From assembly GCF_024746835.1 (NCBI RefSeq), contig NZ_CP080531.1, positions 3,740,001 through 3,804,000 of the forward strand: DNA of 64,000 nucleotides. The letters run 5' to 3'. Positions 5,294 through 28,874 of this stretch are shown one piece after another (positions within the stretch are counted from its first letter, which is position 1; the number at the start of each line of letters is the position of its first letter). The stretch comes from Mesorhizobium sp. AR02 (GTDB lineage: Bacteria; Pseudomonadota; Alphaproteobacteria; Rhizobiales; Rhizobiaceae). Both the position numbers and the translations under genes were made by a program. The notes under the pieces were generated by a model. That model was not told the DNA's origin. It did not search any database and was given only the letters and a program-made list of their open reading frames with translations.

Positions 5294-6082
5294 ATGGCTG
5301 AAACTCAGATTGAATGGACTGACTCCACTTGGAATCCCGTCGCAGGGTGTTCGATTATCACTGCGGGCTGCACCAATTGTTACGCGATGGAAATGGCCAA
5401 ACGCCTTGAGACCATGGGCATCACAAAATATGCGGGACTTACCCGAAAGACAGGAAAGCGCACGGTGTGGAACGGCGTGGTGCGGGAGGACCGTGAGGCG
5501 TTGGCCATTCCCTATGGATGGAAGAAACCACGGAAAATCTTCGTAAACTCGATGAGCGACCTCTTTCACGAGGGTGTCAGCGACGAATTCATCGTCAAGG
5601 TCTGGAAGGTCATGCGCGAGACCCCGCGCCACAATTATCAAATCCTAACCAAGCGGCCCGAACGAATGGCGGCACTCGTCGCTTCCCGGATGGGCGACGT
5701 CCTTCCCAACGTCTGGCTCGGCACCAGCATTGAAAACTCGGATGTCGTGAGCCGTATCGACTATCTCCGCCAAGCGCCTGCGGCCATCAGGTTCATCTCC
5801 TTCGAGCCCCTGATCGGATCGGTTGGCATCGTCGACCTCCGCGGCATTCATTGGGCGATCGTCGGCGGCGAAAGCGGCAAATCGGCTCGGCCGATCAAAG
5901 AAGAATGGATTGACGAGATCCACGGCCAGTGCCTGACGGCGGGCACCGCCTTCTTCTTCAAACAGTGGGGGACATGGGGCAAGGACAACAAAAAGCGCTC
6001 CAAGAAAGCCAACGGACGTGAGTATCGCGGCCGCACTTGGGACGAGATGCCAGTCACCCCAACGGATGCGACTGTAATGTAA
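5294..6082 (+). CDS. DUF5131 / phage Gp37-Gp68 family protein with three-Cys motif
   Basis: 262 residues; ribosome site GGGAGGA precedes the ATG. The N-terminus reads ETQIEWTDSTWNPVAGC and then AGCTNCYAMEMAKRL, giving the C-x7-C-x2-C-Y pattern of this family, which has been likened to an iron-sulphur (radical-SAM-like) centre. Further family marks are PRKIFVNSMSDLFHEGV, YQILTKRPERM and GGESGKSARP. The biochemical role is unknown. The next gene is the three-Cys-motif partner protein that habitually accompanies this family. Confidence 0.85.
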   Translation: MAETQIEWTDSTWNPVAGCSIITAGCTNCYAMEMAKRLETMGITKYAGLTRKTGKRTVWNGVVREDREALAIPYGWKKPRKIFVNSMSDLFHEGVSDEFIVKVWKVMRETPRHNYQILTKRPERMAALVASRMGDVLPNVWLGTSIENSDVVSRIDYLRQAPAAIRFISFEPLIGSVGIVDLRGIHWAIVGGESGKSARPIKEEWIDEIHGQCLTAGTAFFFKQWGTWGKDNKKRSKKANGREYRGRTWDEMPVTPTDATVM

Positions 6083-6107
6083 AAACAATACTTGTTGGGG
6101 GCGCAAG

Positions 6108-7373
6108 GTGGTCGAGAAAAGATACGAATGGGTCGACGGCGCAAAGCTTGAGGAGCATTCACGCCGCAAACACAAAATTCTACGTGAATATGTCTTCGAC
6201 TATCTCACCGTCCGCTGCAGGCTCCCTCAGCAGGAGCGGTTTCGCCTCGCAATCATCGACGGCTTCGCCGGTGGGGGGCGATATCAATGTGGCTCGCCCG
6301 GATCGCCCCTGATTTTCATTGAAGAATTGAACCGAGCCGTCGATGCGGTGAACACACAACGCGCCGCACAAGGACTAGGCGCTGTCGAAGTCGAATGCCT
6401 CCTCATATTCAACGATGCCAGTCGCGATGCGATCGAACTTCTAAAGACGCATGTCGCACCGATGCAAGCAGAGGCCAGCCAGAGCTGCCCCAAGCTGCAT
6501 CTGCGGGTCGAATATCTGAACGAGTTCTTCGAAGCCGCTTATCCCGATATCAAGCGCCTGTTGGGGCAAGGCCGCTATCGGAGTGTCATCTTCAACCTCG
6601 ATCAATGCGGTCATAGCCATGTCGAGCGGAACACCATCCTCGACATTATGCACTCTTATCCCGCGGCTGAGATTTTCTACACCTTCGTCATCAGTTCGCT
6701 GCTCGCATTCCTTCAAAAGGACCAGCCGGAGCGGCTTCGCGCCCAGCTCGATCATCTCGGACTGACGAGCAACGATATCCAGGCGCTCGATGCGCTAATG
6801 AGCCAAAAGGACTGGCTCGGCACAGCCGAGAAAATCGTCTTCGACGCTTTCCGATTGTGCGCCCCCTATGTCAGCCCGTTCTCGATTAATAATCCCGGCG
6901 GGTGGCGGTACTGGCTGATCCACTTTGCGAATGCCTATCGGGCAAGGCAGGTCTACAACAACATTCTGCACGACAACGCCAGCTTACAGGCACACTTCGG
7001 TCGATCCGGCCTCAACATGCTCTCCTACGATCCAAAGCATGATGAAGGCATGCTCTACCTCTTCGATATCAGCGGTCGAGCGTCGGCGAAGAACCAGCTT
7101 CTCGGGGACATTCCGCGCCTGATCATGGAATCCGGAGACGCCATGCCTGTCATGGACTTCTACGAAAGCATATACAACATTACCCCGGCGCACGCCGACG
7201 ATGTCCATGCAGCGATCATCGAAAACCCAGACCTTGAGGTGATAACCCCCGCCGGCGGGGAGCGACGGAAGGCCAATACGATTGGCGTTGATGACGTCAT
7301 CAAAATGAAGAAGCAGATTAGCTTCTTCCCAATGTTCCTGAATGCCGGGACAAGAGGCGGTCCAAAGGAATGA
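6108..7373 (+). CDS. tcmP: Three-Cys-motif partner protein TcmP
   Basis: 421 residues, GTG start 25 bases after the DUF5131 gene. It begins with WVDGAKLEEHSRRKHKILREY and the block IIDGFAGGGRY, both characteristic of TcmP. The DGFAGGG loop resembles a nucleotide or SAM-binding glycine loop, and VIFNLDQCGHSHV could be its acidic partner strand. TcmP proteins are found beside DUF5131 proteins; the joint function is not established. Here the pair overlaps a nuclease-like gene, which suggests a defence or DNA-modification role. Confidence 0.85.
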   Translation: MVEKRYEWVDGAKLEEHSRRKHKILREYVFDYLTVRCRLPQQERFRLAIIDGFAGGGRYQCGSPGSPLIFIEELNRAVDAVNTQRAAQGLGAVEVECLLIFNDASRDAIELLKTHVAPMQAEASQSCPKLHLRVEYLNEFFEAAYPDIKRLLGQGRYRSVIFNLDQCGHSHVERNTILDIMHSYPAAEIFYTFVISSLLAFLQKDQPERLRAQLDHLGLTSNDIQALDALMSQKDWLGTAEKIVFDAFRLCAPYVSPFSINNPGGWRYWLIHFANAYRARQVYNNILHDNASLQAHFGRSGLNMLSYDPKHDEGMLYLFDISGRASAKNQLLGDIPRLIMESGDAMPVMDFYESIYNITPAHADDVHAAIIENPDLEVITPAGGERRKANTIGVDDVIKMKKQISFFPMFLNAGTRGGPKE

Positions 7374-8314
7374 CCGCGCACCGACGTCGGGATCCCGAAT
7401 GGCGCGAATTCGAACGCCTGATCGCGCGGATCGAGGCCGACGCGGGCCCCCGAGGGCTGCTCGTTAAGTCACCAGATCGTCTGCGCTGCAAGCTCACAGG
7501 TCGGCTGAGGGAAGTGGATGCCAGCATTCGCGCCAAAGCCGGCACGACCGAACTGCTTGTCACGATCGAATGTCGACGCAGATCAAAGCTTCAGGATGTC
7601 ACCTGGATCGAGCAGCTAACCACGAAGAAGTCGTCGATTGGAGCAGATCGCACCATTGCCGTCAGTGCGTCCGGCTTCTCCGCCGAGGCTCAGATTGCAG
7701 CATCTCACGCGGGAATTTCGCTTCGCAAAATCTCCGATCTAACGGTCGCGGACATTAATCCAATCCTTAGCCTCGACCTGATTATGTTCTGGCATAAGGC
7801 ATGTGCCATCACCGGAGCCGGCGTTCGCGCGTATCGGGCCGGGGACGATACAGTTCCCGAGCCCGATGACGTGGAGTACATACTTCCGCCTGATACAGAC
7901 TTGTTTGCCCCGATCTTTCACAACACCGAAGACGGCTCGAGTTGGTCGCTGAATGACGTCTGGCGAAAGGTCCAGGAGACCTTAAACCCCTACGCCGAAA
8001 TTGCGAAGGGCGAGCCTCCCATCACGCGGACTGCCCGTATTCCCTACCCCGGAACGGTCTCCATCGACACTCCGCACGGGCCGTGGAAGCTGGGCCATGT
8101 CTTCTTGAGCATGGCGATGTGGATCGAGCCAGAGATGGTCCCGATCGAGGAGGCGCTTAAGGTGTCGTACTCGGATCCTGGTGGTAGCTCTGTTCACCGG
8201 GTAGAGTTTTCCTCTCAGCGGACGCAAGACTGGCGCATATCTTTGCAAGCACAGTCCGACGCCCAAGACGTTAATGAGATTCGGGTTGACGGGAATTTGC
8301 CTAGCAATAAATAA
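7370..8314 (+). CDS. Restriction-endonuclease-like protein
   Basis: 314 residues; its ATG overlaps the tcmP stop by 4 bases, so it is translationally coupled. The N-terminal 120 residues show an Mrr-like nuclease pattern: GRLREVDASIRAK (acidic residue after a strand) followed by ELLVTIECRRRS, where the usual E-x-K reads E-C-R. It continues with a helix and a strand (TIAVSASGFS) typical of PD-(D/E)XK folds. The C-terminal 180 residues are not recognised. The altered E-x-K lysine could mean a variant or inactive site. Confidence 0.65.
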   Translation: MTAHRRRDPEWREFERLIARIEADAGPRGLLVKSPDRLRCKLTGRLREVDASIRAKAGTTELLVTIECRRRSKLQDVTWIEQLTTKKSSIGADRTIAVSASGFSAEAQIAASHAGISLRKISDLTVADINPILSLDLIMFWHKACAITGAGVRAYRAGDDTVPEPDDVEYILPPDTDLFAPIFHNTEDGSSWSLNDVWRKVQETLNPYAEIAKGEPPITRTARIPYPGTVSIDTPHGPWKLGHVFLSMAMWIEPEMVPIEEALKVSYSDPGGSSVHRVEFSSQRTQDWRISLQAQSDAQDVNEIRVDGNLPSNK

Positions 8315-13052: not shown

Positions 13053-14321
13053 CTAAACGAACGGCGCCGCAGCGAGGATGTTTTGACCCTGGACGATGAC
13101 GTTGCACCATTGCTTGGCCCGCGTCACGGCGTTGTAGAGCAGCCGTCGCTTGTGCTCGACATCGCCGCCTACCTGATACGGCCATACAATTACGACGCCG
13201 TCGAACTCGCGATTCTTGGCTTGCTGTACCGTCAATGCAGTGAACAGGTGCGCGAAATTACCGCCATGCTGTCGGCGAAGCGCCACGTTTCGAGCGATCA
13301 CAGCCTCGATGTCCGCTCGGGCGAATTCTACCCTCCCTAGCGCATGGATTTGGTTCTCAACCCACATGATCGACGCACGCACCGGCCCGGAGGGCGGCAG
13401 CGCACGAAGCGCGGCGAGCGCAACCATGGCGGGCGAGGTTGCACCGAGTTGGAGGTCGTCGATGATGACCTGCGTCTCCTCGCGATCCGTGCCCTCCCAA
13501 TGAATCGAATACGGGCCGCTACCCTGCTGCCCGCACGGACCTTGGCCGACACGAGCCACAACATTCTGAGTAAATCCGCCTTGTAAGGCGGGTGTGATCA
13601 CCGCGACATTGCCGCCCTGGCGCCAAGCGACGGCGTTGGCGAGCAACGTCGCGGCAAGCGGGACGCTCACGCCTGGCTGTAAAATTCGGAATCCTTGGCC
13701 ATTGATCGGTGCCTGTCCACCTCGGATAGCCGCCGCAGCCGCGAGAAGGCCGCCCATGTTGGTCCGGCGAACTTGAACCAGCGTTTCAGGCTCCGCTGCG
13801 CCTTGCATCCACGCCACGAGCGGGTTTGGCCGAAGCGATTGGTCGAGACATTGAAACTCGTCGGCAGCGATCAGCGTGCGCGTCGCGGTCGAGAGCGCGA
13901 CCAACATGCGCATTCGCTGAGGCCTGAGATCTTGGCCTTCATCGACCAACACAATCGGAAAGCTCGCAGCTGTCCAATTTCGGACCTGCACCTGCTCAAG
14001 AAGCATCCCTGCGGCGTCACAGACTGCGTCGAATTCACCCTCGGTCCTTGCGGGTACCCCGAGCGCGGCTGCTAGTCCACGCCAGCGCCGGGAGATCCGC
14101 CAGGCAAAGCTATCGACCGTGCAGCATTCTACCCGCCCAACGAGTCCAGGCACGGTGCGAAGCCGATCGGCTAACCGACGACGAGCCCCATGCATGAAGG
14201 TCAATGCGAGAACGCGTTGCCCCTTCGTCAACGGATGCGCGGCCAGCGTCTCGGCCAGCATTTCCATCAACCGAAACGTCTTGCCACACCCCGCCGCACC
14301 TTCCACCGCACGTACTGTCAC
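13053..14321 (-). CDS. gajB: Gabija protein GajB (UvrD-like helicase/ATPase)
   Basis: 422 residues. The start is a GTG overlapping the gajA stop (GTGA), giving a protein beginning VTVRAVEGAAGCGKT. Superfamily 1 helicase motifs are visible: Walker A GAAGCGKT (about 9-16), motif Ia LTFMHGARRRLADRL, motif II LVDEGQDL, arginine-containing VRRTNMGG, and motif VI LLYNAVTRAKQW near the C-terminus. GajB joins GajA to degrade phage DNA when nucleotide pools fall. The gene order gajA-gajB and the coupling are canonical. The size is slightly below the usual 490 residues. Confidence 0.82.
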   Translation of the reverse strand: MTVRAVEGAAGCGKTFRLMEMLAETLAAHPLTKGQRVLALTFMHGARRRLADRLRTVPGLVGRVECCTVDSFAWRISRRWRGLAAALGVPARTEGEFDAVCDAAGMLLEQVQVRNWTAASFPIVLVDEGQDLRPQRMRMLVALSTATRTLIAADEFQCLDQSLRPNPLVAWMQGAAEPETLVQVRRTNMGGLLAAAAAIRGGQAPINGQGFRILQPGVSVPLAATLLANAVAWRQGGNVAVITPALQGGFTQNVVARVGQGPCGQQGSGPYSIHWEGTDREETQVIIDDLQLGATSPAMVALAALRALPPSGPVRASIMWVENQIHALGRVEFARADIEAVIARNVALRRQHGGNFAHLFTALTVQQAKNREFDGVVIVWPYQVGGDVEHKRRLLYNAVTRAKQWCNVIVQGQNILAAAPFV

Positions 14322-16132
14322 GGCTGGAACACCTTTATGGCCGGGTTCGCTACATCGGCGGAAAACAGTGGGTTGGCGACACCCTTCGCGACATCGGTGA
14401 TGGCATTGAGCAGCGAGCGCGCGCGCGCGCAGCAGGCGTCGTTCGCTCCGATCGCGCCTGCGATAATCTCGTAGGAGGATGTGTCCTTCTTCAGACCTTG
14501 AGCCGCTCGAACGTCGCTTTTCAGCCGTGTCACTAGCTCGACGACGGTGGCTGCAGGTTGATCGAGATGGATCGCTGAGAGACAAGCATTCGCATCCGCC
14601 TCGACAATCCAGCCGACGATGTCTTCGAGCATTTGCCCATTCGCCCACCGGAAGATAATGCCCGAATTCGGCGCGCCGGCACCGACGAGTTCGGCAGCAT
14701 ACCCCACGCCCTCCGCATCCCCGTCGACCATCGCGAGCACACGAGGGTGTAGTGCCGCGATGGCGTCGACCGTTCTGACCACCGCACCATCGTGCGTCGG
14801 GATGACACCGATGAAGGAGTCGAACCGGCACTCATCCGCCGCCGCCCAGGTTTGATGAAGATCGACCGCGCGGACCAGGAGGCCCAGCCACTCGAAATCA
14901 GTACGCCCTTCGGGAACCAAGACGAACTCATGCATCACAGCCGCGATGGTCTCGACGCGGTTGACCTGAAACAGCTTCCGCACGCTGTTCGGCGTCGCAG
15001 CGGGCAAAGTTGACGAAAGCAACGGGACCGACGTCAGCGCTCCATTATCGTTGCGCAGCACCGCTACACCCTTGGGATCAGCGAGAGTCGCGACCATGGG
15101 CGAATGCGTCGAGACGAATGTCTGTCGCGAAAGAGCTTGGATGCGGTGAACGAGGCGGCGCTGCAATGGCGGCGGTACATGCAATTCCGGCTCCTCAAGC
15201 GCCATCCAGAAACCTTCGTTGGTCTCGGCTCGCATACGTCCGAACTGCAGGAGCAAAAGAAGGTGTTGGAGCGAAAGGAGGCCACTCCCGTGTCGCCTCG
15301 CAGGCAGAGGAAGATTGCCACCTTCGTGGGCGTAGTGCGAGACGACCGACTCCAGAAGCCCGTCGCTGTCTGTTGCGGTCACCCGAAGATGAAGGGTCGG
15401 AGCGGTCCGGAAGAAACCGCGCAATTCCTGATTCAGCCGATTGACAATGGGCGCGAGACGTTCGTCCTGCTCAAGGCTCGCCTGTGGTGCTCGCAGCCTA
15501 TCCCGCTCGGCGAGAACCGATTCCGAGGGCTGCCCTTCGCCAGCGGCGATAACCCTACGGAAAAGCTCCGATCCGAAGGACACCGTTCGGTCCCACGTTC
15601 TTGCGGCTGGCACGAGGAAGAATCCGATGTCGCGTATCAGCCGCGCCGAGAAGGTTGTAGCGCTCTCCTCCGCGAAAACGTCGCCCACGGCGTCGTCGTC
15701 ATGGAAATAGCGAAGCGTCTCGACTTCGAGCGACGGTCGGTGAAATCGAGCCGCGAAGGCGATCTGGCATGCAAGTCGCCACGCCGCGTCGTTGCGCGCC
15801 GGCATCACTGTGCCATCCGCTGGATTCCACCATTTGACGATCCCGCGGTCCTCGCGAAACCAGTCCATATGCTGCGCCGGATCGTCGCCCTCGAAGCCGA
15901 TTACCGTCGCGACTAGCCGTATGCGATCAGCAGGCTGGGGATTGCTGCCGTAGAAATCATGCTCGGTAAGCTGGCGGATCATCCGATCCCGATCGAACAA
16001 CAACGCCAGCGCTTCGATAACCGTAGTCTTACCGCAATTGTTTGGGCCAACGAGAACTGTATGGGGTGAGAAACGAACTACACCTTCGCGGATACCGCGA
16101 AAATTCTCGATTTCTAGTTTCGCAATCTGCAC
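14318..16132 (-). CDS. gajA: Gabija protein GajA (OLD-family ATPase-TOPRIM nuclease)
   Basis: 604 residues. The N-terminal ABC-type ATPase starts LEIENFRGIREG and has Walker A VGPNNCGKTTVIEAL (about 32-46). The signature and Walker B region are RRHGSGLLSLQHLL and WMALEEPELH, with an H-loop at FVSTHSPM. The C-terminal TOPRIM domain has LVPEGRTDFEWL and AMVDGDAEG, the E and D-x-D metal ligands. GajA is a sequence-specific DNA endonuclease held back by nucleotides. It overlaps gajB by 4 bases. A (GC)n run lies inside the gene near 14415-14430. A plain OLD nuclease is the alternative, but the coupled helicase makes Gabija the best call. Confidence 0.85.
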   Translation of the reverse strand: MQIAKLEIENFRGIREGVVRFSPHTVLVGPNNCGKTTVIEALALLFDRDRMIRQLTEHDFYGSNPQPADRIRLVATVIGFEGDDPAQHMDWFREDRGIVKWWNPADGTVMPARNDAAWRLACQIAFAARFHRPSLEVETLRYFHDDDAVGDVFAEESATTFSARLIRDIGFFLVPAARTWDRTVSFGSELFRRVIAAGEGQPSESVLAERDRLRAPQASLEQDERLAPIVNRLNQELRGFFRTAPTLHLRVTATDSDGLLESVVSHYAHEGGNLPLPARRHGSGLLSLQHLLLLLQFGRMRAETNEGFWMALEEPELHVPPPLQRRLVHRIQALSRQTFVSTHSPMVATLADPKGVAVLRNDNGALTSVPLLSSTLPAATPNSVRKLFQVNRVETIAAVMHEFVLVPEGRTDFEWLGLLVRAVDLHQTWAAADECRFDSFIGVIPTHDGAVVRTVDAIAALHPRVLAMVDGDAEGVGYAAELVGAGAPNSGIIFRWANGQMLEDIVGWIVEADANACLSAIHLDQPAATVVELVTRLKSDVRAAQGLKKDTSSYEIIAGAIGANDACCARARSLLNAITDVAKGVANPLFSADVANPAIKVFQP

Positions 16133-22917: not shown

Positions 22918-23238
22918 ATGGACATTTTGTGGGCAGCACTGCTGGGTGCCCTTGGGGGCGTTCTCCCAGATTTCATCAAGGTAATTCGCAAGCGATTCGA
23001 GAAAATGCCGACTTATCTCGGCCGCCGGTTTTATTGGTTGAACGTGGCGTCCCTGGCGGTCATGGGTGCGATCGCTTCGGCGATAGGTCATCCCAGCAGC
23101 ATTCACGAAGCCCTAGCCTATGGCGCTGGCGCGCTCGCGCTGCTCACCCAGGCCTTCGGCCAGAACGACGAACAGCATCTCGGCGACGCGGAGCAGGTGA
23201 ACCCGATTCGGCAGATTCGGGCCTGGTGGGGTTCTTGA
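22918..23238 (+). CDS. Small two-helix membrane protein opening the CHAT operon
   Basis: 106 residues; ribosome site GGGGGA lies 6 bases before the ATG. An N-terminal hydrophobic stretch (ILWAALLGALGGVLPDFI) is followed by a basic segment (VIRKRFEKM), then helices LNVASLAVMGAIASAIG and ALAYGAGALALLTQAF. The C-terminus is soluble. The CHAT gene overlaps its end. As a membrane partner of a protease-like protein it could be a target or anchor in an abortive response. No family recognised. Confidence 0.7.
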   Translation: MDILWAALLGALGGVLPDFIKVIRKRFEKMPTYLGRRFYWLNVASLAVMGAIASAIGHPSSIHEALAYGAGALALLTQAFGQNDEQHLGDAEQVNPIRQIRAWWGS

Positions 23239-26200
23239 AAGTTGCCGAGGTTTCCTGTTCATCCCGTTGGCTTCGTCCCGTCGTTCAGCTGAAGGGCGCG
23301 GGACAGGATCGGGAGATCGCGCTTGGCGGATTGCGGCTTCCATTTTTCGATCGCCCGTTCGACCTGTGGTCCCGCGATTCGAGAACGTCATTCCGATCCG
23401 CGTTCAGAACGGATGCTATCGCTGCCGCGCTCGACGAACGAATGTTTGAGGATCGCGAACCTCTGGTGCTGCGGATCGGATCAGGCGACGAGGCCAGGGT
23501 GCCATGGGAGGCCTTTCAGGCCGAGATCAATCCGCTTAACCGCCACAAGCTGGCACCTCTGCGCACCGTCGATCAGGACCGGAATTTCAGTTTCAGTGCA
23601 GTACCCTCTCGGATGCGGGTTCTGGCACTTGTCGGACATCCTGGGGCCGAACGCGCCTTTGATCCTCAGGCAGCTCAGGATTTTCTTGCCGGGACACTGA
23701 GTGCCGCGCGAGCGGCGAGCGGTCGGATCGAGCGCTTCGAATTGGCGCAGCTTCGCGGTGACAGTCTCGACGTCGTCGTTGCCCGCGCCGAAGCACTGCA
23801 ACCCAACGTCGTGATCTATTTCGGACATGGACGCCGCGTGGCCGGGCCCGAGGTGCGGACAGCGGCGGCTGAGAATGGCTGGCTGGCCGTTTCCGCGCTT
23901 GCGCAGACGTTGTTCGCAGTTCCGGAAACCGCGCCGCCGTTCTGGATTTTCTGGGCGTGCTCGCTTGGCGAGGATGAAAACCAGCCGTCGCAGCAGGTTG
24001 ATGGAAGTGCCGCGCTAAGCACGCTGAGCCAAAGTGGCGGCATTGCCGTCCTCGCGATGCGATCGCGAATCCGAGTGCGCGCAGCTCGCCCGATGCTCGA
24101 GGCACTTCTCGGCTCCTTCGCGTCAGGAGAGCCGCTGGAAGTCGCTGCAGCGGTTTGTCGCGCGGCCGCGCTCAATACCGATGTAATCAGCGATGGCCGA
24201 ATGGACTACGCAGCGCCGGCCGTCTGGTCGTTGAGCGAACCCGTTGACGCCATCAGCTGGGGCGACGAGCCAGCATTTCCGGCATCCTGGGTGGCTGTCC
24301 GTCTGTTGTCCGATGGCAATGAACTTCCCGCACTGGGGAACGGGCTGGCTCCGGTCGATGAAGCTTCATCCGCGCTTGCACAGACGTGGAACCGTCCTGG
24401 CCGATATTTTGCAACGACCGGCAGCATTGGAATTGACGCGGGGTCCCGCTCTCGGTTGCTCTCGGTCGGCGCGGCTATCCGTCGCGACACGGGCCGGCCG
24501 GTCGTCCCGATCCTCCCGCGCGCCGGGGCAACCTTCGATCAACGGCTACGACTGTGGGCTGAGGATGCCGTCCGGCAGCTTGATCCACGGCACCATGATT
24601 GCGAAATCGCGTATGCCATCGGTGCTGTGCGCGACACGGGCTTGAATGGGCTTGTCCGGCTTCTCGCAATTCCGGATATTGTCCTGCTGCTGGGAGACGT
24701 TCCCGACACGCCGATCGCCTGGGACGTGCTTGTGGGCGCAGCGCCGGGCAGCTCGATCGTCGTTGCCGGATCGGCTCCACCCGACGCGGCCAGGGGATGG
24801 GCGATGGATCAGCTGATGTCGAACTCGGCGCGTGACCAAGTCGAAGCCATTGCCCGCGCTGAACCGCTGGGGTCCGCGATCCTGAGCGTATCCGAGCGTG
24901 CGCTGGCGATGCACAAAGTGGCGCAAGTGGCCGGTGTCGACGCAGGTCGCATCGATCAGCTCGATCCGTTCTGCGTCCGTGTCGCTGGCCAACGCGTGCT
25001 GACCGAAACGGCGCGACGCCGCATGCTTGAGTGCCTGCCGCCCGAGACGATCGCGGCAGGCCGCCGATCCTGCATCACGCTGCTGCTGGACCAGCCGGTC
25101 GCGCACGATTTCGGTGCGCTGATAGAAGTGGTTCGCCATTATGTCGCGCTCGATGAGGGGATCGCAGGCGCCGAAGCGGTAAACGCCGCATGGCTCGTCG
25201 CTGGTGCCGGCTGGACCGTCTCAGATCGCTCAAGGCTGTTCGACGCTGCGGCGCGAAGCCGGATACTGCTGGACAGCCTGCATGATGCACCCCTCCTCGC
25301 TATCGTCGAGGCGGCCATCCTCCTGCAGAACCTCGGGCTCGCGCGTACGATCCTCGATCGCCGCCATTTTCGCGAGCCCGGAGATCGGGCGCGCAAACAT
25401 GCGATGCTGTCGGAATGCTTCAAGGCAGATGTGGCCCGCCCCGGAGCGCAGGCGGAGATGCGGCGCCAGGCCGAGGCAGCGGTGACCAATGCGCAGGCGG
25501 CCGTCGATGGGGGTGTTCCCGGCGCGGTGGTTGAGTTGCTGCAATACCGGCTCAACCTTGCGCGCATTTCCCAGTATTTCGACCATAACTACGAAGGCGC
25601 ACTGGCGAACTACGAGGCGATCCGCGACGAAATCCGGCCCTCGGCTTATGAGGACCCGGTGCGCGCTCATCTCTTCGCCGCCGCCTGCCGAAATGCCGCC
25701 GAATGCATTCTCGATCCCGCACCGCGCCCCATCGATGGTGCCACGCGTGACCGCGCCGAGGCGCTTGTTCAAGAGGGGCTTGAAGCAGCCAGAGCTCGCG
25801 GCCTGACCGAGGTCGAGATGGAGCTCAGCTACACCCGCACCCGCATCGCGGAAGCTGCCGGCGACGATCAAACGGCTGCGGGCTTACTCACCGACCTCTC
25901 GAACGGTCGGGCCGTCCGCCGCTATCCGCTGCTAGCGGCCATCGCTGCCGAAAGGCTTGCTTGGAATGCCGTGCGCACCGGTCGCCGCAACTTCACCTGG
26001 GAAGATCAGCGCGCGCGTCTGCGGTCGCTCAGCCTGTTCGACCACGCATGGGCGCAGCGTGTTGTGATGAACGGTCGTATCCGCGGCGCTCGATGCCTTG
26101 CGGCAAGAAGCGCTGCGGATCGAAAAGTCGCTTTGGCTCTACTCGAAGAGAATTGGGCCGACATTCAACGATTGCCGGGGCTGACGGGCTACGACGATGC

Positions 26201-26354
26201 ATGCCGCGTGGCGGAAACCGCCGCAGGCCTCGATGTCCTGGCCGGAGCGGATGAGAAGACATGGGCCGCCTTCCTGGCGTCCCCGCAGGCCGCAAGGGTG
26301 CCCGATCCATGGAAACGGCAAGGCGCGGCGGAGATATGGGAGGGAAGAGGTTAA
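23226..26354 (+). CDS. CHAT-domain (caspase-like) protein with long helical repeat region
   Basis: 1042 residues from a GTG at 23226; a TTG at 23235 overlapping the upstream stop is an alternative. The CHAT domain (about 120-330) contains PNVVIYFGHGRR with the catalytic His near 201, and PFWIFWACSLGEDE with the catalytic Cys near 245, followed by GGIAVLAMRSRI. The middle (about 400-600) is unrecognised. The last 450 residues are helix after helix (for example EAVLARALGLTEVEME-like pairs) and resemble TPR or related repeats that sense a partner. CHAT proteases act in several phage-defence and gasdermin or CRISPR-linked systems by cleaving a protein on activation. Confidence 0.8.
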   Translation: MGFLKVAEVSCSSRWLRPVVQLKGAGQDREIALGGLRLPFFDRPFDLWSRDSRTSFRSAFRTDAIAAALDERMFEDREPLVLRIGSGDEARVPWEAFQAEINPLNRHKLAPLRTVDQDRNFSFSAVPSRMRVLALVGHPGAERAFDPQAAQDFLAGTLSAARAASGRIERFELAQLRGDSLDVVVARAEALQPNVVIYFGHGRRVAGPEVRTAAAENGWLAVSALAQTLFAVPETAPPFWIFWACSLGEDENQPSQQVDGSAALSTLSQSGGIAVLAMRSRIRVRAARPMLEALLGSFASGEPLEVAAAVCRAAALNTDVISDGRMDYAAPAVWSLSEPVDAISWGDEPAFPASWVAVRLLSDGNELPALGNGLAPVDEASSALAQTWNRPGRYFATTGSIGIDAGSRSRLLSVGAAIRRDTGRPVVPILPRAGATFDQRLRLWAEDAVRQLDPRHHDCEIAYAIGAVRDTGLNGLVRLLAIPDIVLLLGDVPDTPIAWDVLVGAAPGSSIVVAGSAPPDAARGWAMDQLMSNSARDQVEAIARAEPLGSAILSVSERALAMHKVAQVAGVDAGRIDQLDPFCVRVAGQRVLTETARRRMLECLPPETIAAGRRSCITLLLDQPVAHDFGALIEVVRHYVALDEGIAGAEAVNAAWLVAGAGWTVSDRSRLFDAAARSRILLDSLHDAPLLAIVEAAILLQNLGLARTILDRRHFREPGDRARKHAMLSECFKADVARPGAQAEMRRQAEAAVTNAQAAVDGGVPGAVVELLQYRLNLARISQYFDHNYEGALANYEAIRDEIRPSAYEDPVRAHLFAAACRNAAECILDPAPRPIDGATRDRAEALVQEGLEAARARGLTEVEMELSYTRTRIAEAAGDDQTAAGLLTDLSNGRAVRRYPLLAAIAAERLAWNAVRTGRRNFTWEDQRARLRSLSLFDHAWAQRVVMNGRIRGARCLAARSAADRKVALALLEENWADIQRLPGLTGYDDACRVAETAAGLDVLAGADEKTWAAFLASPQAARVPDPWKRQGAAEIWEGRG

Positions 26355-27160
26355 ATGGGAACCGGGGGTTTGGCGGAGGGAGCGGTTCGCTCGGCGGGGG
26401 GAGCGCGGGATCGTCCGGTTCGGGCCCTTCGCGAGGCACGGGAGGCGAAGGATCGTCCGGTTCGGGCGGATCTCTGCTGCGGGCGATCACGCATCTGCGC
26501 GACATCGCGCGGATGCTGACCGCGGATGGTGACCAGGCTCGACTGACGCGCGAAATCAATGCGCTGCTGCGCGAGAGAGGGCGCGCCAGCTTCATGGCGG
26601 GGCTACTCGCCGACCCCTTTGCGACCACGCTGCTCGACCGCCTGCTTCAACTCAGCGGCAGGGTTCAAACGGAAAGCTGGTCGGATATTCTCGACAGTGC
26701 CGACGTCGCGAAGGGTCCGGGATCGATTACGGCCTATTGCGACATGGTGATCGAGGAAGCGCTACAGGAGCACGGCGACGCCGTTGATGAAAGGCACATC
26801 GACCGCGCGGGGCTGGCGCTGCGCTCCTTTCTGGCAACGTCCCTGGCGGGTGATGACCTAGTCGTCGCCGAGCAAGGAGATGCTGCGGCCGTCGACGCAG
26901 CCATGGATCGGACCCGCCTCGCAAACGAGGGCGCCATTCGCCGCGGTTTCCTCGGACAAGTCATCGCCAAGAGCATCGCCGGCGAGTCCTGCATCGATCT
27001 CGGAGCATCGGCACCTTCGGTCGAGCGCGCCGCCGATACGATCGCTGCCGCCATCCAACAGCGCTTTGATGAGAAATTCGTCCGCAAAGGCAAGGCCGAT
27101 GTCTCCGACTTCCTTCGGACGGTTGGCGCCAACTACGCAAAACTGGTGACCGGCCAATGA
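26336..27160 (+). CDS. QatB-like partner protein with glycine/serine-rich N-terminus
   Basis: 274 residues from the ATG at 26336, overlapping the CHAT gene by 19 bases. Residues 1-45 are almost only Gly and Ser with few basic residues (GGGSGSLGGGSAGSSGSG). From about 47 the protein is helical (LLRAITHLRDIARML). The gene overlaps the QueC-like gene by 4 bases. In Qat systems the gene just before qatC encodes QatB, of similar size and with a flexible Gly/Ser-rich N-terminus. I assign QatB-like by position, size and N-terminal character, not by a recognised domain. Confidence 0.5.
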   Translation: MGGKRLNGNRGFGGGSGSLGGGSAGSSGSGPSRGTGGEGSSGSGGSLLRAITHLRDIARMLTADGDQARLTREINALLRERGRASFMAGLLADPFATTLLDRLLQLSGRVQTESWSDILDSADVAKGPGSITAYCDMVIEEALQEHGDAVDERHIDRAGLALRSFLATSLAGDDLVVAEQGDAAAVDAAMDRTRLANEGAIRRGFLGQVIAKSIAGESCIDLGASAPSVERAADTIAAAIQQRFDEKFVRKGKADVSDFLRTVGANYAKLVTGQ

Positions 27161-28449
27161 GCGCGCCCGCAGCCATTCCCGCTCGCGTCGAGATCACGAA
27201 GGCGCCGCGGCCGGAGACACATGTGCTCGACCTGGATTTGGCCGACATCGAATGGCACGACGCGGCAGGTCTCGGACCAAACGGCCTTGACCGCCGCGCG
27301 CTCGACCTCCTCGAGATCGCGCGCCTCGTCGGGGAGGTCGAACGCTACATTCCCAAGCGCATCTCCAGCCAGCGCGTGCGATCCGTCAAAGTGCAGATGT
27401 CGGTGCGCGAGCCCTCTGCATGGACGCCGAAAAGCCTCGCCGCGCTCAAGGCAATCTTGCGGCTGCTGGGCAACGCGGAGTGGACGTTCGGATTCTCGGA
27501 GCGAAAAAGGGACAGCGCGCTCGACCGTCTTTCCATGGATGGGGCGCAGCCGGACCACGTTTCGAACGTCGCCTTGTTCTCGGCCGGCCTGGACAGCACC
27601 AGCGGCCTCGATTGGCTGGTCCGCAACGGGACCGACGCGGCGCTTGCGTCCTTCTACGGGTCGAAGGCGAAGCAGACCCAATTGGCGGGCCAGTTCGAAT
27701 TCAAGCGCCATGTCCAGATGGGGTGCACCTGGGCCAACGGACGGCGCCGAATCGGCGGGCAGTTTCAATATCGCTCTTTCCTGTTCCTCGCGCTTGGCGC
27801 GATGGTCGCGCGATCCTACAGAGCCTCGACTCTGCTGCAATTTGAAAATGGCCCGCTGGCGATCGCGATGCCGCCGGCAGCGACCTACCGGATGACCCGG
27901 CATGCCCATCCAATGCTGCAAACGCTGGCGAGCGAGTTGTTCTCGAACCTGTTCGGCGAGCCTTTGTCAGTTCAAAATCCGTTTCTCTCGCTGACCAAGC
28001 GCGAAGCCGCTAATGCCATGAAGTCACATCTCGGCGCCGAACGGTTCGAGAAAACAATTCTGGGTACGGAGACCTGCTGGAACCTCGCATCGCGTCAGGT
28101 GCTTGGTGCAATCACCAAGCGCATCGGTCAACCCTGTGGACTTTGCATTCCTTGCGTCGTTCGCCGGACCGCGTTGCCGGGGTCTGACGTCGCCCATGCG
28201 GTCGACCTCACATCGAGAAAGGACCCGCACTTTGCCGATGCTGATGCGCGCATCCATGTCGACGCCTATCTGGCATGGGCACGCAAGCTCACGGCATCCT
28301 CCTATGGACCCGAGCGCTTCGCATTCGAGGCGCCGCAGATCGTGCGCGAAGCGGTTGCGCATTCGGATGGTAAGCTGACGATGAGCGCGATTTTTGAGAT
28401 CGAGCGGCGATTTGCCCATGAGCTGATCCAGACGTTCCCGGTGCCGTGA
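27157..28449 (+). CDS. QueC-like PP-loop ATPase, QatC-like
   Basis: 430 residues, ATG overlapping the preceding stop. The PP-loop reads NVALFSAGLDSTSGL (about 138-152), corresponding to the S-G-x-D-S motif. A QueC-type zinc site is complete: ETCWN (Cys near 307) and CGLCIPC (about 327-333). QueC makes 7-cyano-7-deazaguanine, but QueC-like proteins in defence loci (QatC, type IV CBASS) are longer, lack the rest of the queuosine pathway nearby, and are thought to modify a partner protein. No queD or queE is present here. The length matches QatC. Confidence 0.8.
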   Translation: MSAPAAIPARVEITKAPRPETHVLDLDLADIEWHDAAGLGPNGLDRRALDLLEIARLVGEVERYIPKRISSQRVRSVKVQMSVREPSAWTPKSLAALKAILRLLGNAEWTFGFSERKRDSALDRLSMDGAQPDHVSNVALFSAGLDSTSGLDWLVRNGTDAALASFYGSKAKQTQLAGQFEFKRHVQMGCTWANGRRRIGGQFQYRSFLFLALGAMVARSYRASTLLQFENGPLAIAMPPAATYRMTRHAHPMLQTLASELFSNLFGEPLSVQNPFLSLTKREAANAMKSHLGAERFEKTILGTETCWNLASRQVLGAITKRIGQPCGLCIPCVVRRTALPGSDVAHAVDLTSRKDPHFADADARIHVDAYLAWARKLTASSYGPERFAFEAPQIVREAVAHSDGKLTMSAIFEIERRFAHELIQTFPVP

Positions 28450-28874
28450 TGACGAACACCATTCTTCCGCACTCGCTTGTCGCTCTCAGCATCAAACAGC
28501 CCTGGGCGGAACTGATCCTCCTCGGGCGCAAGACGATTGAAGTGCGAAGTTGGTCGACCGACTTCCGCGGGTTGCTTGCCTTGCATACCGGCAAGAAACC
28601 CGCACCGGAGGCGTCGGCCCGCTTCCCTGACATCGACGCGAGTTACCTGGGAGGGTTCGTCGGCGTGGCCGAACTCGTGAACGTTGAACCCTTCACACAG
28701 GTGAGCTGGAGCCGCCTCCGAACGGCGCATCTGGTCCCAGGCCCGATGCCCGGCGAGGCGTTTGGCTGGCATTTCCGGAACGCCCGTCGGTTGACAAGGT
28801 CGATCAGCGCGAGTGGAAGTCTTGGGCTATTTCCTGTTCCAGCGGGAATAAAGCAATCCATGGAAATTTCGTAA
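28449..28874 (+). CDS. ASCH-domain protein
   Basis: 141 residues; the start overlaps the QueC-like stop (TGATG), and a GTG one codon earlier is possible. The N-terminal ASCH signature reads ALSIKQPWAELILLGRKT then IEVRSWSTDFRG. It continues with LALHTGKKP and GGFVGVAELV. ASCH folds resemble PUA RNA-binding domains and some are RNA or nucleoside hydrolases. Tight coupling to the QueC-like gene makes it a likely component of the same system. Confidence 0.8.
   Translation: MTNTILPHSLVALSIKQPWAELILLGRKTIEVRSWSTDFRGLLALHTGKKPAPEASARFPDIDASYLGGFVGVAELVNVEPFTQVSWSRLRTAHLVPGPMPGEAFGWHFRNARRLTRSISASGSLGLFPVPAGIKQSMEIS

Follow-up and report, generated by a model that had tools for sequence, protein, structure and literature searches.

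A QatB-QatC pair joined to a CHAT protein in Mesorhizobium sp. AR02: a candidate anti-phage operon that looks like an undescribed branch of the QatB-QatC system

Do five tightly packed genes in Mesorhizobium sp. AR02 form an anti-phage defence operon, and if so, how is it related to qatABCD and other known systems? The genes lie in a stretch of 64,000 nucleotides (contig NZ_CP080531.1, positions 3,740,001 to 3,804,000; hereafter the window), for which a first-pass annotation had proposed a new defence operon encoding a small membrane protein, a CHAT protease-like protein, a QatB-like and a QatC-like protein, and an ASCH protein. The best explanation, which we judge to have slightly better than an even chance of being right, is that of an anti-phage defence operon with QatB-QatC as its core and the CHAT protein as its most likely effector. 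The observations behind it are of homology, fold, gene order and residue changes. The same set of genes is also present in distantly related bacteria and so looks like a real, so far undescribed branch of the known QatB-QatC system.

All five open reading frames of the proposed array were found between 22918 and 28874, on one strand and overlapping or touching (Table 1). The QatC-like gene overlaps the Gly-rich gene by 4 bases and the ASCH gene by 1 base. The start of the large protein equivalent to TTG 23235 is the one used in the gene calls of two close relatives. Three related loci were fetched, from Mesorhizobium B2-7-2 (L001), a Bradyrhizobium plasmid (L002) and a plasmid of Mesorhizobium AR10 (L003). 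The same five-gene neighbourhood is complete in L001, with identities of 71% for CHAT, 72% for QatB, 82% for QatC, 76% for ASCH and 56% for the small protein. In L002 and L003 four genes follow in the same order, those for CHAT, a Gly-rich protein, QatC and ASCH; apart from the Gly-rich one, their products are 25-41% identical to those of the window. Neither locus has a match to the small protein. The co-occurrence of CHAT and QueC-like genes anticipated by the first-pass annotation is therefore repeated in all three.

Table 1. Genes of the operon, with positions in the window.
Feature	Coordinates	Strand	Basis and remarks
Small protein, 106 aa, hydrophobic segment; optional member	22918..23238	+	ORF, hydropathy, 56% identical copy in L001
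CHAT (caspase/separase-like) - STAND-like - TPR protein	23226..26354	+	1042 aa from GTG; 1039 aa from TTG 23235
QatB-like protein, disordered Gly/Ser tail	26336..27160	+	Start uncertain; in-frame ATG 26336
QatC-like protein (QueC family), 430 aa, T247-x-H249 replacing T-x-T	27157..28449	+	Pfam, PADLOC, NCBIfam, 9zee match
ASCH-domain protein, 141 aa	28449..28874 (alternative start GTG 28446)	+	Pfam ASCH E 6.4e-7

The QatC-like protein gives the firmest link to a known system. Its QueC-like assignment is supported by Pfam QueC (E 5.3e-5), by PADLOC QatC (E 7.9e-28) and by a match of residues 46-340 to the solved QatC structure 9zee (E 4.4e-16). The NCBIfam QatC model matches at E 9.9e-33 with 113.6 bits, under its 280-bit cut-off, and the canonical QueC model TIGR00364 is not passed (12.4 bits, the cut-off being 150.3). 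Motifs and key residues, defined after the descriptions given in PMC13279940 and PMC13329287, were followed through an alignment of the window protein with 28 of 105 QatC homologues (29 rows; alignment A1). All 29 rows have the PP-loop residues S/G/D/S, R206, P-x4-TK and the four zinc cysteines; F210, the adenosine partner, is Phe in 27 rows and Tyr in 2, the second PP-loop position is Gly in 24 rows and Ala in 5 (including the window), and the first two cysteines are spaced by 19 residues in 16 rows (again including the window) and by 18-24 in the rest. The protein is thus a QueC-family homologue that retains the ATP and zinc residues.

Its substrate pocket is distinctive. The numbering of 9zee agrees with the residues named in PMC13279940, so that T278 and T280 of QatC correspond to T247 and H249 here. 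Both threonines are described in that paper as invariant in QatC, and changing both abolishes defence. His249 is present in all 29 rows of A1 as well as in L001, L002 and L003, with T247 kept, and T-x-T is found in 22 of 22 canonical loci; a further branch with long QatC frames has Thr or Ser at both positions (8/8 loci). The T-x-H pocket suggests a substrate that differs from those of QatC (T-x-T) and Cap9/QueC (Y-x-D).

The QatB-like protein shares a common fold with QatB, as seen with VIA-align in a second look. A Foldseek search with it gave no match at E < 0.001. A sequence link to canonical QatB, at an hhalign probability of 18.5% with alignments made here, was not accepted as proof; the probability against the MGH-type partners of the long branch was 54.2%. 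The window protein also had no significant tblastn match to the gene between CHAT and QatC in L002 or L003, where the Gly-rich genes are called QatB-like by position, size, Gly-rich tail and start. In the relatives this gene begins right after the CHAT stop with MG[ST] and has a long Gly/Ser tail; the N-terminus, which is MGTS in the QatB of qatABCD, is MGT in seven of nine database relatives, MGSGS in L002 and possibly MGSSGS in L003. The equivalent ATG of the window, at 26355, gives MGTGG and then falls out of the frame of the gene body, because a G-rich run at the gene start (26336-26420) and its counterpart in the Mesorhizobium copy are unequal by one base. The upstream ATG 26336 is in frame and gives MGGK, and the window copy has no in-frame MG[ST] start. 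The 274-residue Gly/Ser-rich protein of the first-pass annotation hence exists as a reading frame, with a length that depends on this upstream ATG, and the relatives start otherwise. An assembly error would explain the shift, as would a real change in which an MG start happens to be kept; the undisturbed frame is present in the relatives' copies. An odd QatB N-terminus was also noted in a metagenome relative (P0135). With QatC homology on one side and a QatB-like fold on the other, the pair goes beyond the mimicry of qatB-qatC that had been claimed for it.

Features shared with qatABCD are QatC homology, the QatB fold, the B-C order with overlapping ends, a long unstructured QatB tail and, in the operon's relatives, an N-terminal glycine. 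The operon differs in having a CHAT protein for QatA and an ASCH protein for QatD, in its T-x-H rather than T-x-T pocket, and in a QatB that cannot be aligned by sequence. The absence of qatA and qatD had been noted in the first-pass annotation, and no KAP NTPase or TatD was found among the 26 window ORFs scanned with Pfam; neither gene is annotated in L002 or L003 or occurs among seven scanned neighbours in L001. Since it misses qatA, qatD and T-x-T, the operon is not to be filed as qatABCD. By analogy, it resembles qatABCD in how its core would work, and for qatABCD defence is reported to depend on the glycine of QatB, the active site of QatC and the complex of the two proteins (PMC13279940). 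About one third of the QatC cluster adjoins qatA and qatD according to PMC13329287, which leaves room for other partners. Type IV CBASS likewise has a QueC-family enzyme adjoining a protein with an N-terminal MG start, and N-terminal modification is reported there (PMC11996544); it differs in that Cap9, as described in PMC13279940, is short and carries Y-x-D, and the genes of the operon match no CD-NTase or other nucleotidyltransferase in Pfam, PADLOC or NCBIfam. The literature searched, which included no bioRxiv preprints and few subscription papers, yielded nothing that connects QatC with CHAT or ASCH; the words "CHAT" and "ASCH" are absent from the main text of PMC13279940 and PMC13329287, and the review PMC10952713, in the part concerned, gives QueC and CHAT under separate systems. 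Within that literature, the pairing of CHAT and QueC-like proteins is a new combination, as first proposed.

The large protein has a caspase-like (CHAT/separase) fold with a His/Cys dyad, His201 and Cys245, at the positions given by the first-pass annotation. Profile matches are sparse: Pfam CHAT was matched by two of 17 scanned family members (best E 1.1e-11), and the window protein itself has a sub-threshold Pfam match to Peptidase_C25 (E 0.017). Its best Foldseek match is 6mfv, a STAND NTPase-TPR protein, with which it shares the order of middle domain and TPRs, and from which its family differs in lacking the Walker A motif. The proposed picture of a CHAT protease-like protein with helical repeats thus stood for CHAT and was amended to CHAT, STAND-like and TPR parts. 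A caspase-like fold with His and Cys is also found in Csx29 (the TPR-CHAT protein of type III-E CRISPR, which likewise has TPRs) and in SAVED-CHAT proteins; in the operon, by contrast, CHAT is N-terminal, the middle domain is STAND-like, and there is no CRISPR or cyclic-nucleotide partner. The protein is a putative protease. Two homologues, at 4108-7239 of L001 (P0114) and P0126, have Ile or Asn in place of His201 and retain the cysteine.

How such an operon might work can be sketched from these parts. QatC would modify the QatB N-terminus, as PMC13279940 leads one to expect; the TPR and STAND-like part, to go by its architecture, would respond to the state of QatB-QatC, or by way of that pair to a phage trigger, and set the caspase-like protease free. 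The protease would cleave cellular proteins, perhaps also the small membrane protein, and phage growth would be halted, most likely through cell death or arrest. A more specific version is possible, though we give it well under an even chance: the T-x-H QatC would attach a compound different from carboxy-deazaguanine to the glycine of QatB, and the CHAT protein would sense the tagged tail and kill the infected cell.

The CHAT protein need not be the effector, since QatB-QatC alone can defend in qatABCD, where the pair is reported to suffice against some phages such as lambda-vir (PMC13279940). QatB-QatC could then be the whole defence here, with the CHAT protein as a regulator, either a scaffold or a protease trimming QatB or a silencer, that keeps the core quiet until infection. 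A scaffold role would fit the missing Walker A pattern (17/17 family rows, so that the protein does not qualify as a STAND NTPase) and the replacement of His201, which is conserved in 17 of 20 aligned CHAT rows and lost in three, the Mesorhizobium family included, so that proteolysis may not be universal. Cys245, retained in 20 of 20 rows together with the protease fold, speaks against the regulator reading, as does the action of CHAT proteins as effectors in other defence systems, for example CRISPR type III-E (PMC10952713). We regard regulation as a doubtful yet serious alternative, and an effector role for the CHAT protein is favoured.

Two accessory genes complete the operon. The ASCH gene of the first-pass annotation was recovered, and its protein occupies the same place in L001, L002 and L003. 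An adduct-removing amidase was considered, but among solved structures the protein matched the ASCH domains of ASC-1 best, which leaves that role a guess. Recognising the adduct, removing it or binding RNA are conceivable functions. The small protein has one hydrophobic segment (residues 38-56), barely above threshold and more distinct in the Mesorhizobium relative, which fits the proposed membrane protein; its conservation extends to L001 only. It has no match in L002 or L003. Its place in L002 is taken by an unrelated ORF with hydrophobic segments, and no membrane-protein counterpart was recognised in L003. This non-conservation weakens its candidacy as a fixed protease target.

In gene content, the setting fits a defence island borne on a conjugative element. 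The window encodes a relaxase, a TraG-type coupling protein, TrbE-like and CagX proteins and a replication initiator, and the proposed position in the cargo of an integrative conjugative element beside defence genes is compatible with this. The AbiGi-like neighbour is present (E 1.5e-9) and falls outside the conserved unit, having no match in L001-L003. Elsewhere in the window are a GajA/GajB-like (Gabija-type) pair (13053-16132, minus strand) and two genes (5294-7373) matching PADLOC PDC-M41B/M30B (E 7e-101) and PDC-M30A (E 1e-20), after which comes an Mrr-type endonuclease (7370-8314). It is improbable that the operon is instead a stress-response or competition module that uses QueC-like chemistry for another purpose: QueC-fold relatives do serve metabolism as well (PMC13329287), but the homology to a defence pair and the mobile, defence-rich surroundings point away from this. 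The AR02 genome also holds two canonical QueC genes above the TIGR00364 cut-off (C1:676567-677166 and C1:756493-757089), so that 7-deazaguanine precursors are probably available in the host.

The CHAT protein matched two of 72,556 plasmid records (L002 and L003), both with this QatC family, and QatC matched 98 of the same records; among 372 genomes of the class, the CHAT family occurs in one, AR02 itself. For six of 19 CHAT homologues there is a QatC homologue whose longest contig has the same length, in four of these six cases under the same organism name, and P0114 belongs to the L001 family, the comparison with QatC covering seven of the 19. That CHAT-STAND-TPR and QatBC-ASCH are two independent, adjoining units, as mutually unrelated domain families and QatBC with other partners elsewhere would allow, is very unlikely given touching genes in the same order in all three fetched relatives, down to 25-29% CHAT identity, and no CHAT family member apart from this QatC family in those plasmid records and genomes.

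A QatC tree of 57 rows has three groups: the clade of the window (28 rows, 100/100), the canonical group (21, 100/99) and the long group (8, 99/91). With the window clade rooted on the other two, L003 lies in the first-branching subgroup of eight (100/100), and L002 and the window lie in the other subgroup of 20 (84/61, weak), so that the clade probably has its CHAT link from its common ancestor; long branches, L003 included, were flagged by the program. An A1 profile at E 1e-30 found 9 of 385 class genomes and 16 of 297 family genomes, 23 of them besides AR02, which were assigned by partner start, length or tree to the canonical (16) and long (7) kinds. At E 1e-45 it found one of 397 genomes in the order of the Mesorhizobium relative, that genome itself, and two of 145 in its genus, the second of which coincides in position with L003. 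Ten fetched plasmid loci comprise six with a P-loop NTPase before and TatD after qatBC, two of the CHAT kind, one of the long kind and one fitting none. Viral contigs yielded four loci (QatC identity 24-27%), each with an MGTS partner. On a Halolamina plasmid (L034, 5719-7161), a QatC-like gene has no recognised long partner frame upstream and no annotated qatA or CHAT.

The long branch is an observation in its own right (L005, L006, L017, L018, L020, L021, L023 and L033; also L049-L053). Its QatC frames are 575-662 residues long, with a T/S-x-T/S pocket, and a partner of 259-264 aa starting MGH[IVQE]RLG precedes the QatC frame in seven of eight loci. The C-terminal part matches a DpnII-MboI-type endonuclease domain in Pfam in the L033 protein (E 1.2e-9) and P0104 (E 9.6e-7); Pfam found none in P0085 and P0092. 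Across six long-branch loci compared, only the partner and the QatC-like gene are common to all.

The reaction of QatC, and how modified QatB stops phages, are given as open questions in PMC13279940. In the present operon the same core is tied to a putative protease and has another substrate pocket, which provides an output that can be read as cleavage and a further chemistry for comparison. That the branches differ in their sets of partners speaks for QatB-QatC as a core that can be reused, like the signal enzymes of CBASS. Should the tagged-tail version hold, a protease would be controlled through a chemical modification of its partner's first residue, and T-x-H would be a third kind of QatC pocket. 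In that case QatB-QatC would serve as a general sensor linked to varied outputs: an NTPase with TatD, a caspase-like protease or a fused nuclease.
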